From: Cytophagales bacterium
GTDB lineage: Bacteria; Bacteroidota; Bacteroidia; Cytophagales; UBA9547
Direction: 5' to 3'
DNA: 64,000 nt
Assembly (NCBI GenBank): GCA_013297755.1
Contig: JAAFIH010000022.1
Location: 1 to 64,000, forward strand
Shown here one piece after another: positions 3,205 to 39,731 of this stretch (position 1 is the stretch's first letter; each line of letters starts with the position of its first letter). A program made the position numbers and the translations under genes. The notes under the pieces are model-generated. The model searched no databases. It was not told the DNA's origin and saw only the letters and a program-made list of their open reading frames with translations.

Positions 3205-3355
3205 TTAATTGTTAATGGTTAATTGTTAATGGTTAATTGTTAATTGTTAATTGTTAATTGTTGATTGTTAATTGTTAATTGTTAATTGTTAATTGTTAAT
3301 TGTTAATTGTTAATTGTTAATGGTTAATTGTTAATGGTTAATTGTTAATGGTTAA
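3205..3355. repeat. Heptamer tandem repeat upstream of a surface-protein start codon
   Basis: About twenty copies of the heptamer GTTAATT, with GTTAATG variants, run almost without interruption from 5 bases upstream of the ATG at 3200. On the transcribed strand the unit reads AATTAAC. The tract therefore forms the leader and/or promoter region of the gene ending at 342. Tandem repeats of this kind are prone to copy-number change by slippage. That expression varies with the length is inference. Confidence 0.9.
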
Positions 3356-6195: not shown

Positions 6196-9180
6196 TTACT
6201 CTACCACCAATTTACTAGTCGTATTTCCTACTTTTACCAAATAAATACCTTTGATTAAATTAGCATTTATTTGTGTGTTTTCTGAAACTATTTTTTGGCT
6301 ATAAACCACCGAACCTTGGGCATTGAAAATAGTTAGTAGTTCGGAGTTGGTAGTTGACAGTTGGCTTAATACAATAAATTCGCCATTAGTTGGGTTTGGA
6401 TAAATTGAAATGGCTTCATTGCTCGCTATGCTGTTTAGTAGATAAGTAGGACTGCTTACCACTACTACCGTTGGCGAACTTGATGCAGATGGTGTTAGAC
6501 CCAATTGGGCTACCAAAATACTTGGTGCTGTTGGGTTTGCTACCGTGCTACCTGCTGGTATTGAGCCTGTAATCATGTTGCCAGAAACTACTACGTTTGT
6601 TAAAACTACCCCACCAACGGTTACGGTAGCTCCGTTTTGAAAACCAGAACCTAGTATAGAAACTAATATAGCAGAAGTAGTGCTCGATAAATTTGCTGAT
6701 GCACTCAAACCTGTTACGGTTACTTGTGTTTGGCAGTTGTTTACAGTTAATGTTGCTGTATTTGAAACCGCATTGCCACACGTACCACTTACAGTAACCA
6801 TATAATTTCCTGCAGTGCTAGCCGAAATCATAGCATTGCTGTTTCCAGTATTCCATACATAAGCAAGACTTGTACCAACTGCCGTAACCGCAAAAGAATT
6901 CGATAAGCCGCTACATACGGTAGCAGATACAGGCTGAGTTATAATACTTGTACCCAAAAGTGTAGTGAGTGTTGCAGTATTTGAAACCGCATTGCCACAC
7001 GTACCACTTACAGTAACCATATAATTTCCTGCTGTGCTTGCAGAAATCATAGTATTGCTGTTACCTGTATTCCATACATAAGCTAGACTTGTACCAACTG
7101 CCGTAACCGCAAACGAATTTAATAAACCGCTACACACGGTAGCAGATACAGGCTGAGTTATAATACTTGTACCCAAAAGTGTAGTTAAACTCACTGTATT
7201 TGAAACCGCATTGCCACAAGTACCACTTACGGTAACATTATAATTACCTGCTGTGCTTGCCGAAATCATAGCATCGATGTTTCCTGTATTCCATACATAA
7301 GCAAGACTTGCACCAACTGCCGTAACCGCAAACGAATTCGATAAACCGCTACATACGGTAGCAGATACAGGTTGAGTTATAATACTTGTACCCAAAAGAG
7401 TAGTGAGTGTTGCAGTATTAGAAACCGCATTGCCACAAGTACCACTTACTGTTACTACATAATTACCAACCATATTAGTAGATATACTTGTAGAAGTTGC
7501 TGCTGTGTTCCACAAATAAGAAAGCACTCCTGTACCTGTTGCCGAAACCACAAAAGCAACATTAGTACCTGCACACGTACTTTGCGACATAGGTTGCGTA
7601 ACAATACTTGTACCCAAAAGTGTAGATAAACTCACTGTAGCTGATGTTTCACTTCCACAAGTTCCTGAAACGGTAACATTATAATTACCAACTACATTGC
7701 TAGAAATACCCGTAGTAGTAGCTCCATTGCTCCAAGCATACTTTAAATTATCGCCAGTAGCCGAAACCGAAAAACCCACATTACTACCTGCACAAGTGCT
7801 TTGAGAAACTGGCTGGGTAGTTATATTTGCAGGAATAGCTAAACTTAGTCCATTATCATAAATAACCCATCCCTTGCCACCCACTCCTGTTAAAGAAGTT
7901 AAAAAAGCTCTTGCAGCAGATGCCGATGCACAAAAACGTAAGCCATTAGCACTCAACACTCTGTCTGTAACTGTTGTAGCACTAAAGCCTTGCAAAGTAG
8001 CCGCATAATTTGAAGCAGACATTCCTGAATTATCAAGCATATTATTCATATTAACTATTGGATTTAAGCGAGTGCCCCAACTGCCTATGGGTTGGTTGAA
8101 AGCTGTGGCACCTTCAAACATACTAGACATATCAGTAACCGAGCTGGTGTTCCAAGTGCCTATGGGTTGGTTAAAGGCTGAGGCCCCAATAAACATATAA
8201 CTCATATTAGCAACCGAGCCTGTGTTCCAACTGCCTATGGATTGGTTAAAGGCTGTGACATAATTAAACATACCATACATATCTGTAACCGAGCTGGTGT
8301 TCCAACTGCCTATGGGCTGGTTAAAGGCTGTGGCACCGCCAAACATAAAACTCATTTTAGTAACCGAGCCTGTGTTCCAAGTGCCTATGGGCTGGTTAAA
8401 GGCTGTGGCACCGCCAAACATATAACTCATATTAGTAACCGAGCCTGTGTTCCAAGTGCCTATGGGCTGGTTAAAGGCTAAAGCATTGTAAAACATACTG
8501 TTCATATTTGTACATGCTGTTGTAACCCAACCGCCTATGGGTTTGTTAAAGGCTGAGGCAGATCTAAACATATCTCTCATACTAGTAACCGAGCCTGTGT
8601 TCCAAGTGCCTATGGGTTGGTTAAAGGCTGTGGCACCGTAAAACATACCATACATGTTAGTAACCGAAGCCGTGTTCCAACCGCCTATGTTGGTAGGTGA
8701 GTTTAATACTGTGCAATCTTCAAACATACTACTCATACTCGTAACATTGGCAAGATTAGGCACATCTGTAGCGGATATTTGCAAATTGTTGCAACCAAAA
8801 AAAGCACTTTCCATACTACCCCAAGCCACACTTCCCCATTGGGCTACATTGCTTAGTCGGTTGCAGTCTACTCCGTTACCAATATTTATTCTATTAAAAT
8901 TAGTGCCATCAATACTAAGACTTATGCGAGCATTGGTAGGCAAACCTATGATATTTGCAGTAGTACTTGTAAAAGTACCAGTGCCACTTAAGCCTGAAGG
9001 TATTTCAGCCCATTGGTAGCTTACTATACCGCTGGTGCCTACGCCAAAAGTCAATTGGTTGTTTATGCCAGATCCAGGGGCTTTAAGGTTCCATTCGGTA
9101 ATAAAAGGCTGTGCCTGTGCTACCGATAAACCTAATGAAAAGAGCAATCCTGCTCCGATTGTTTTGATTGTTTTAAACAT
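6196..9180 (-). CDS. T9SS-exported BspA-type leucine-rich repeat protein with Ig-like repeats
   Basis: I place the start at 9180, where [23 protein letters not shown] is a normal signal peptide; the frame is open 24 codons further upstream but that part is encoded by repeat DNA. The mature protein has a head domain. About ten BspA/DUF285-type repeats of 24-25 residues follow ([20 protein letters not shown] type). Then come about five Ig-like repeats of about 73 residues ([14 protein letters not shown]...[13 protein letters not shown]), some nearly identical in DNA. An IPT/TIG-like stretch ([14 protein letters not shown]) and a type A T9SS sorting domain end the protein. BspA repeats in other bacteria mediate binding to host or matrix proteins; here adhesion is inferred. 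Repeat near-identity makes this gene prone to unit gain or loss. Confidence 0.88.
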
Positions 9181-38357: not shown

Positions 38358-39086
38358 TTAATCATGGTCGGTTTCAATATATTTCAATTGTTGCGTGAGT
38401 TGCTCTAGGGTTGGCAATCCCAATTTGATATTTTCTGGCAATTCAGTATAGCGGTATTCGCTTACGCCTATGGGTTTATTTACGTCTTTGAGGGCAAATT
38501 CTACTTCGTAGTTATCTTTGTTTTTGCAAAGCAAAATACCAATTGTAGGGTTGTCGTTAGGGTCTTTTACCAATTCGTTGATAGCCGAAATATAAAAATT
38601 GAGTTTACCAATAAATTCAGGTTCAAATTCTTGGTACTTTAATTCTATCACTATATAGCACTTGAGTTTGGTATGATAAAAAAGTAAATCTGTGCGGTAT
38701 TCTTTTGAACCAACTTTGAGCAAATATTGATGCCCCATATAAGCAAAACCCTTACCCAATTCGAGTAAAAATTGCGAAATATGTTGAACTAATTTTTGTT
38801 CCAAATCTTTTTCTTTGGCTTTTTCTGAAAGGGTTAAAAACTCAAAATGATACGGATCCTTTAGCAAAGAATTGGCCAAATCGCCTTGTATTTCTGGTAG
38901 TACATTTTTAAAATTAGTAACGGCACTGCCTTGTCTTTTGTACAAATTGGTCTCAATTTGATATTCAAGCACGGCTCTACTCCAATTGTTTTCTACTGTT
39001 TTTTCGATGTAAAAACAGGCTTCTTTTGTATTCTTTATCTTCTGGATAATTAAGATATGACTTCCCCATGGAATATTGAAAAACAC
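38358..39086 (-). pseudogene. DUF1016/YhcG-type nuclease, C-terminal part, cut off by a nonsense codon
   Basis: This 242-codon open part carries the YhcG core (NIPWGSHILIIQKIKN, WSRAVLEYQIETNLYKRQG) and the PD-(D/E)XK nuclease motif (YRTDLLFYH...YIVIELK). It is in the same frame as the fragment starting at 39731. The codons between are an in-frame array of 15-residue repeats, and only the TAA at 39285-39287 separates the two parts. A GTG at 39086 is the first start codon in this part, but translation from it is doubtful. Without the stop, the protein would be about 457 residues instead of the usual 350 or so. YhcG-like proteins may act in DNA or phage-related processes; this is not settled. 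Confidence 0.8.
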
Positions 39087-39106
39087 CTCATTATCAAACA
39101 GTTGTA

Positions 39107-39447
39107 ATTGCGAAACAGCTTGTTTCGCAATTGAAAAATTGGACTCCTCTAATTGCGAAACAGCTTGTTTCGCAATTACAAAATTGGGTTCGTCTAATTG
39201 CGAAACAGGTTGTTTCGCAATTACAAAATTGGGTTCGTCTAATTGCGAAACAGGTTGTTTCGCAATTACAAAATTGGATTCGTCTTATTGCGAAACAGGT
39301 TGTTTCGCAATTACAAAATTGGGTTCGTCTAATTGCGAAACAGGTTGTTTCGCAATTACAAAATTGGGTTCGTCTAATTGCGAAACAGGTTGTTTCGCAA
39401 TCACAAAATTGGGTTCGTCTAATTGCGAAACAGGTTGTTTCGCAATT
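39107..39447. repeat. Eight copies of a 45-bp palindromic tandem repeat inside a gene
   Basis: Palindromes TTGCGAAAC-(5)-GTTTCGCAA recur every 45 bp, starting at 39107, 39152, 39197, 39242, 39287, 39332, 39377 and 39422. The 20-base linkers (TACAAAATTGG(G/A)TTCGTCTA type) are also nearly identical. Because the unit is a multiple of three, it adds 15 residues per copy (QLDEPNFVIAKQPVS) to the DUF1016 frame. In one unit T to A in a Leu codon makes the TAA at 39285-39287. Several overlapping frames on both strands are open here because the unit lacks stops in them. Confidence 0.95.
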
Positions 39448-39731
39448 ACAAAATAAAATAAAGTCCATTGCCTAATCAATTCTAAATTTCGCTTAGAAAA
39501 TCCAGTCATTTGAGGAAATTCGGCTTGTAAATCTTTACTCAACTGGCCTAGAAAATTGCTTCCCCAATTACTTGTCTGTTGCTTATCAATAATCTGAATA
39601 CCTAAATCTAAATAAAGCATAATCAGTTCTTTATTAACTGACACAGAAGCATTTATCTGCGATTTTTTAACATTTTCTTTTAATGTATAAAGCCAGTTTT
39701 TGTATGCTAAATCCGAAACCAAATTACTCAT
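39285..39731 (-). pseudogene. DUF1016/YhcG-type nuclease, N-terminal part
   Basis: The 148-residue fragment has the DUF1016 N-terminal domain (LYLDLGIQIIDKQQ...WGSNFLGQLSKDLQAEFPQMTGFSKRNLELIRQWTLFY), then enters the 15-residue repeats and stops after four of them. Without the stop it would continue through four more repeats into the nuclease part at 38358-39086. As it stands the product lacks the nuclease motif. Read-through, or a recent mutation, would both fit the very good preservation of both halves. Confidence 0.8.

Follow-up and report, generated by a model that had tools for sequence, protein, structure and literature searches.

A candidate self-addressed palindrome in the coding sequence of DUF1016/YhcG nucleases, amplified in a broken member from a Cytophagales bacterium

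The broken gene and its palindrome array

The window, by which we mean the whole stretch of 64,000 nucleotides of a Cytophagales bacterium analysed here, carries on its minus strand a DUF1016/YhcG nuclease gene (38358..39731; PADLOC PDC-S02), as judged from its reading frame and domain matches. Read from 39731 down to 38358, the frame is open apart from a single TAA codon (39285..39287, minus strand, located by translation). This codon lies in the fourth unit, counted from the N-terminus, of an array of eight 45-bp (15-codon) units (39105..39454, minus strand), which tandem-repeat and pattern searches describe with a period of 45, 7.8 copies and 96% matches. Each of the eight units holds an exact TTGCGAAAC-N5-GTTTCGCAA palindrome; the pattern search placed the copy closest to the nuclease half at 39108..39130 and the starts of the other seven at 39153, 39198, 39243, 39288, 39333, 39378 and 39423. 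The original prediction of an in-frame palindromic expansion in eight 45-bp copies, with one nonsense codon breaking an otherwise open frame, is borne out on both points. A chance origin of the array was rejected, the pattern being far beyond chance. Five units (1-3, 5 and 6) lie within one base of the unit consensus, which suggests that the expansion is recent; units 4, 7 and 8 are further from it. The count of eight may be affected by the assembly, and the exact copy number is uncertain, since the array is a near-identical repeat of 350 bp in a 70-contig assembly and the contig of another genome starts within the same array (L047, the same stretch as L052).

The gene shares both Pfam domains (PF17761 and PF06250) and the catalytic residues with the DUF1016/YhcG family (COG4804), from which it differs by the eightfold palindrome array and the stop. 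The PD-(D/E)XK nuclease domain (PF06250, YhcG_C) was matched at 38427..38870 of the minus strand with an E-value of 3.6e-62, and this C-half carries TDLLFYH and IELK, with the PD-(D/E)XK catalytic residues. PF17761 (DUF1016_N, 137 positions) is matched in two halves (E-values 4.4e-18 and 1.7e-11), with the array separating profile positions 2-76 from 91-137. The array thus interrupts DUF1016_N itself, and does not lie between that domain and the PD-(D/E)XK core as had been predicted. It makes a linker of 126 codons including the stop, against 12 codons for the commonest linker of the family. The window gene is an expanded and broken member of the DUF1016/YhcG family, whose full protein is no longer encoded. 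Plain pseudogene decay was rejected as a full account: the gene is broken, yet the palindrome is present in intact family members. Other tandem repeats in the window are 21.6 copies of the 7-mer TTAATTG (3205-3355), a 219-bp unit repeated 3.3 times (6751-7464) and a 75-bp unit repeated 8.2 times (8077-8689).

As anticipated, the number of units can differ, with eight here and three in an orthologue of the same genus (G001; locus L017, on the contig of L051, a Bacteroidetes MAG), whose C-half is 94% identical and whose frame is intact. Its three units are diverged, with changes on both arms (GAAGC/GCTTC; ACG/CGT). A third gene, 90% identical and from another family of the order (G170), starts at a contig edge within the array. 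The difference between eight and three units, with one genome per species, speaks for a phase switch in which the gain or loss of units removes or restores the stop codon. Such a switch nevertheless seems very improbable: it concerns one genome only, copy number never shifts the frame since the unit is 15 codons long, and two more of the seven DUF1016 paralogues of the window genome have one nonsense codon (TAG in L012, G000:C5; TGA in L015, G000:C10) without any array.

The palindrome of the array unit was also sought elsewhere in the 4.24-Mb genome, and none was found outside the DUF1016 gene at up to two mismatches (control pattern, 0). With at most one mismatch, it matches four of the 291 genomes of the order; in three of these (the window's, G001 and G170) the match is in this DUF1016 gene, and in the fourth a lone one-mismatch match falls in another gene, not in a DUF1016 frame. 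In ten family genomes, a 14-base generic version of the palindrome gave 11 forward matches (control, 0), ten of them in DUF1016 genes. As these scans confine the palindrome nearly always to DUF1016 genes, a dispersed palindromic element was rejected. The proposed likeness to the palindromic elements of Rickettsia, which are dispersed insertions, is not supported for a palindrome limited to one gene in the genome. Those elements, about 100-150 nt long (PMC4316617), are likewise palindromic and in frame inside genes, whereas the DUF1016 palindrome is not dispersed, measures 27 bp in a 45-bp unit and occupies a homologous position across the family. Unlike REP/RAYT sequences, DUF1016 palindromes are not high-copy and intergenic, whether in the window genome or in E. 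coli. The window palindrome is an amplified form of an element that most DUF1016 genes examined have at this position, and not a foreign insert.

Within the flanks compared, DNA similarity between the window gene and L051 begins 15 nt upstream of the ATG and extends to the stop codon. Since the neighbouring genes differ, the DUF1016 gene seems to move alone. As for phage targeting by the window palindrome, this idea was rejected: the exact arms match one viral contig, which itself carries a DUF1016 gene with the palindrome. No relative came up when viral contigs were scanned with only the window protein as query.

A palindrome at a fixed codon position in the DUF1016 family

DUF1016 genes were gathered by protein similarity, independently of the palindrome, from the window's own genome, its genus, family, order and phylum, GTDB contigs, viral contigs, plasmids, one phage record and E. 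coli. The 215 open frames that match the C-half profile yielded 173 distinct genes with both halves, 17 exact duplicates having been removed, and 172 with clean DNA (L203 and L207 are outside the scored set). Bacteroidota genomes and viral contigs dominate the set, other phyla being represented by few genes each. A stricter PD-(D/E)XK catalytic pattern matches 130 of the 173 genes.

Over the 172 genes, the palindrome of the linker has a mean score of 11.0, compared with 4.6 for synonymous recodings of the same peptides (100 per gene, with the gene's own codon usage) and 4.1 for other windows of the same genes. No recoding was as good as the observed palindrome in 138/172 genes, and the linker, which is 8% of the gene body, holds strictly the best palindrome of the gene in 150/172. 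Among 136 less redundant genes, 108 beat all recodings and 120 have the linker palindrome as their best. Scores below 8 were obtained for 16 of the 172. Members with the palindrome include E. coli K-12 (score 15), another E. coli allele (13), Arthrobacter (16), Burkholderia (14), a Glaesserella plasmid (13), Curtobacterium (11), Pseudanabaena and Frigoriglobus (10 each), and Leptolyngbya, a Rickettsiales bacterium and Methylomonas (9 each); it is weaker in Rhodococcus and Wolbachia phage WO (7 each) and in Deinococcus (6, with 5/100 recodings as good). Selection on a pseudo-symmetric linker peptide would agree with the recurrence of a motif like I-x-x-Q-x-V-x-Q. However, the same peptides lose their palindromes when synonymously recoded (4.6 versus 11.0), and of all the explanations considered we regard this one as the most improbable.

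In its majority form the palindrome is about 27 bp long, AATTGTGCAACAACTTGTTGCACAATT, with conserved outer AATT blocks and inner bases that differ from gene to gene. Its centre is at codon position 1 in 167/172 genes and exactly 18 nt ahead of a conserved Trp codon in 82 of the 87 short-linker genes. When the centre was placed from the protein alignment alone in these 87 genes, 84.9% of 13 base pairs were complementary, as against 15.8-29.6% with the centre slid by 1-4 bases. Pairs 2-8 are complementary in 90-97% of the 87 genes and make use of three or four Watson-Crick types; among them, these genes have 66 distinct 9-nt arms. Symmetry is lower in the final unit ahead of the Trp codon in 78 longer linkers (42%, versus 24-30% when slid), where the best palindrome may reside in another unit.

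Two further explanations bear on this symmetry. Mutation alone, with hairpin-templated repair keeping any palindrome perfect in the absence of function, would account for the adjacent units of the G001 orthologue, whose changes are compensated on both arms. It would leave aside the codon position fixed across the genes examined, the conserved AATT ends and the residue-base code described below, and we consider it highly unlikely. As for a stem-loop acting in the transcript, the long perfect stems with short loops look suitable for an mRNA hairpin. Yet G:T pairs on the sense strand are not favoured over A:C (7 versus 16 at d=2-9), internal mismatches comprise 9 G:T and 24 A:C, and the arm bases track protein residues, all of which makes an RNA role barely plausible.

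Identical palindromes occur in 1/76 pairs of paralogues within a genome and in 2/302 pairs between genomes, numbers too few for a claim of avoidance; the single pair within a genome stems from two overlapping loci that contain the same gene. In six of the seven viral-contig loci L153-L159 (not in L157), some of which are near-duplicates, a second long, GC-rich palindrome is present near the DUF1016 N-terminus; it codes for IEAARxRAAS and similar peptides (EVARQRATS in L156), unlike the linker palindrome.

Covariation of residues with arm bases, and a predicted fold

For 155 genes with a base-centred palindrome score of at least 8 (17/172 were dropped), arm bases were compared by mutual information with the protein columns that lie outside the linker. 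The strongest pairs are -7 with N77 (z 10.9), -3 with C3 (z 8.9), -3 with C32 (z 7.4) and -2 with C33 (z 7.0), followed by -2 with C3 (z 5.2) and C32 (z 5.0), by N80 with -8 and -9 (z 5) and by N81 with -5 and -6 (z 4). Base -2 also scores with C34 (4.7), C1 (4.7), C82 (4.6), C54 (4.3) and N52 (3.8); as C82, C54 and N52 lie away from the three helices discussed below, some background of relatedness appears to remain at this position. In weighted genes, Arg at N77 goes with G at -7 in 43.9/44.9, and Thr, Ser, Lys or Ala mostly with C or T. With Tyr at N81, base -6 is C in 37.4/39.9 and base -5 is A in 35.8/39.9; Arg at N81 is looser, with G at -6 in 14.1/22.6 and C at -5 in 15.6/22.6. In column C3, Gly goes with C in 34.7/34.7 and Ser with A in 30.3/37.0, and Arg at C33 goes with C at -2 in 40.0/40.0.

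When arms were shuffled within protein clusters (8, 15 or 25), 0/500 shuffles reached the observed value for each of eight pairs; for nine pairs, it was reached by 0-2 of the 816-819 decoy columns taken from the nucleotides of these genes. Related sequences are still present in these counts, the effect of kinship being reduced, not removed, by the weights and the cluster shuffles. Arm bases were also predicted from residues after training on genes less than 40% identical, with the majority base and a random column as baselines. Base -3 was predicted at 0.99 (baselines 0.10 and 0.20) and -2 at 0.91 (0.03 and 0.29), these low baselines being partly due to a gene's own subfamily being left out along with its relatives. 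Bases -7, -6 and -5 were predicted at 0.74 (0.43 and 0.41), 0.74 (0.57 and 0.43) and 0.79 (0.64 and 0.52). Base -8 was not predicted above the majority base (0.57; baselines 0.58 and 0.52), and -9 hardly so (0.59; 0.56 and 0.46).

The window gene encodes the first recognition helix, SKRNLELIRQW, at 39465..39497 of the minus strand, the residues having been placed from the covariation columns via the GFSxRNL motif; within this helix, R81, E84 and L85 correspond to the specificity columns N77, N80 and N81. On the other side of the array, the Gly codon of IPWGS (39063..39065, minus strand) is column C3, and the Arg-Ala codons of NNWSRAVL (38973..38978, minus strand) are columns C32 and C33. These six residues (R, E, L, G, R, A) are those of L017. 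The window arm agrees with the code tables at -9, -8, -7, -5, -3 and -2 and has at -6 the rarer base for Leu in column N81, an agreement that is not independent, L017 being among the data.

The N-domain of a short-linker relative (L166) was modelled with a pLDDT of 94.8. All six covarying columns map to the first turns of predicted helices: residues 76, 79 and 80 in helix 75-87, residue 104 in helix 103-112, and residues 133 and 134 in helix 133-141. VIA-align of the model returned ParB, Noc, Spo0J or SopB proteins in all of the first 12 rows, with Z from 9.5 to 5.5 (for instance 7bnr, Z 9.5, rmsd 3.0 over 100 residues, and the Noc-NBS complexes 7ol9 and 6y93, Z 9.2 and 9.1). A row of another type first appears at Z 5.4, and the absence of other folds above it proves nothing. 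Foldseek against the PDB also placed Noc and ParB chains first, with weak E-values (at least 1.0). A profile of 29 N-domains against PDB sequences retrieved no ParB chain at E up to 1, and no sequence relative was found in the PDB. The C-terminal domain matches NucS/EndoMS (Z 11.5). The ParB-type fold of DUF1016_N is a strong lead and no proof, as a Z below 10 is modest for a helical domain and may reflect a common helical arrangement.

According to one report (PMC7383237), helix 4 of the helix-turn-helix of ParB, together with helices 6 and 8, contacts parS, and the bases by which parS and NBS are told apart are touched by residues 173 and 201 (in Noc, 158 and 186). These residues are 28 apart, as are residues 76 and 104 of the DUF1016 model, a spacing noted without residue-by-residue alignment. 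The likeness to ParB-parS and Noc-NBS lies in a model resembling their DNA-binding domain, in a probable palindromic site and in specificity residues placed 28 apart at helix starts. In addition, parS-359 of B. subtilis sits inside parB (PMC4442127), much as the DUF1016 palindrome sits within its own gene. In contrast to ParB and Noc, DUF1016 proteins have a PD-(D/E)XK domain, lack the CTPase/ParB N-domain and detectable sequence similarity, and in most of those examined keep the site at a single codon position. No ParB CTPase domain was among the Pfam matches to the pieces of the window gene, and both models of a relative begin with one long helix.

Possible roles of a site within its own gene

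Most DUF1016 genes examined have a palindrome at a fixed position, symmetric beyond what codon usage gives, whose bases covary with residues of the encoded protein. Given this fixed position, the free symmetric sequence, the residue-base code and the ParB-like model, the economical account is that the protein reads its own palindrome, and we think it very probable that the protein itself binds there. Covariation alone cannot fully separate helices that follow the bases from helices that follow the linker residues, but the latter seems disfavoured by the synonymous control and by palindrome copies outside the coding frame. A scan of 155 loci with each gene's own arm found 18 sites outside the linker at 15/18 positions or more, against about 1.9 with the arms of other genes, although some of the 18 (L083, L090) look like chance; there was no excess at 13 and 14/18 positions (30 and 5, against 27 and 6 expected). 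Own-arm sites are upstream of the likely start in L076, L079, L149, L206 and L037 and about 30 nt after the stop of E. coli yhcG, and one subfamily (L010, L014, L018, L019, L174) has a further palindrome inside the gene whose arms are similar. Family-type palindromes, with own arms or not, lie downstream in L081, L211 and K-12, and upstream, as judged by eye, in only 11/171 genes.

In E. coli K-12, the yhcG linker has three degenerate units, the last of which is a perfect palindrome with 15-bp arms (378-410 of the CDS). The yhcG DNA matches 4417/5426 E. coli genomes, 3310 of them over at least 80%, and the K-12 palindrome is found in 3526/5426, at a median of two and a maximum of four places per genome, two places being read as the two strands of one site. 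Another E. coli allele (L128) is 95-100% identical to K-12 yhcG except in nt 241-540, where five windows of 60 columns have 60, 67, 47, 87 and 90% identity. This block holds both the recognition helix (AKNLRQ versus TRNLWQ) and the palindromes, so that reader and site would differ between the two alleles as one cassette.

We propose that DUF1016/YhcG proteins are in all likelihood sequence-specific DNA-binding nucleases whose site lies in their own coding sequence, with autoregulation as the likeliest role of self-binding, and that the window gene is an amplified and broken case. In this proposal, a ParB/Noc-like helix-turn-helix domain (DUF1016_N) would be joined to a PD-(D/E)XK domain, and the binding palindrome would have the recognition-helix codons on one side and the codons of the following DNA-contacting helices on the other. 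Reader and site would occupy a single short segment of about 200 bp in basal members, and a recombining allele would therefore carry lock and key as a pair. Self-binding would keep the protein on its own gene and repress or block transcription, and the potentially harmful nuclease would stay low until titrated away. In the window gene, the self-site would have been amplified to eight tandem copies, and the frame is broken by the stop. Autoregulation or sequestration fits a nuclease that must stay low and a window genome without other sites; we give this role about an even chance. A repressor site inside a gene instead of at its promoter is unusual. Intragenic operators and the autoregulated controller (C) proteins of restriction systems are known cases of a DNA-binding protein acting on its own locus. 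The DUF1016 site differs from these in lying within the reader's own codons and in varying with the reader, and a nuclease is fused to the latter.

Alternatively, the nuclease might bind and cut copies of its own gene at the palindrome, as a device for copy-number control or kin exclusion or for a recombination that reshuffles specificities, in which case the expansion would be a scar of break repair. The catalytic D and K are invariant in 27/27 and 41/41 aligned DUF1016 proteins (two alignments), and the genes are found on mobile DNA (71 viral-contig loci, 458 plasmid records, 15/50,697 phage records). The arms diverge fast, site and reader change jointly, the site is unstable, 85/173 linkers exceed 14 aa, and the block that differs between the two E. 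coli alleles contains the palindromes. Partial yhcG matches beside transposase genes (L123, L124, L125, L126, L130) end at 406, 385, 235 and 1060 of 1128, and two of these four end types, drawn from 60 listed rows, are in or at the palindrome (406 and 385, the palindrome being at 378-410). On the other hand, the resident gene is as a rule intact, no means of protecting it is known, palindromes are mutational hotspots anyway and the junctions sampled are very few; self-directed cutting is a tentative possibility. It is tempting to go further and to imagine that each allele codes for a reader and, in those very codons, holds its main site, and that the nuclease targets further copies of that allele, recognising kin alleles and cutting or displacing them. 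We consider this rather unlikely. If true, site and reader would diversify jointly without end, mobile genes would have a self/non-self identity system, and palindrome arrays such as that of the window would be amplified self-targets.

YhcG/DUF1016 was assigned to the PD-(D/E)XK nucleases in 2005 without a function (PMC1189080), and no function reported since was found in the literature searched. Another study (PMC2672614) reports deletion of yhcG as synthetically lethal with hypomorphic dnaB, dnaN and parE. No description of a palindrome, a DNA-binding role or a code in DUF1016/YhcG/COG4804 was found in the literature searched, which comprised few subscription papers and no bioRxiv and included PMC7967276, PMC3694923 and PMC11341870. 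A recognition code that can be deduced, with the site in the gene, would give a testable DNA-binding specificity for every member, including YhcG of E. coli K-12, and many natural lock-and-key pairs for studying the evolution of protein-DNA specificity. Cutting or control of its own gene by the protein, if it occurs, would be a new kind of self-regulation or self-policing in a mobile nuclease.

As for genetic contexts, in four of 170 loci (L013, L017, L032, L061) the DUF1016 gene sits at one shared position in a type ISP/Eco57I-like methylase gene, following VFDIMQGVSI-[NS]-IFVKK, and a Type_ISP_C domain lies downstream of it in L051 (= L017) and L061. Elsewhere, DUF1016 genes are located between pglX and pglZ of a BREX system (L205), beside a DNA methyltransferase gene (L208) and directly before a type I hsdR gene (L054), and in this last locus a further palindrome follows hsdR.
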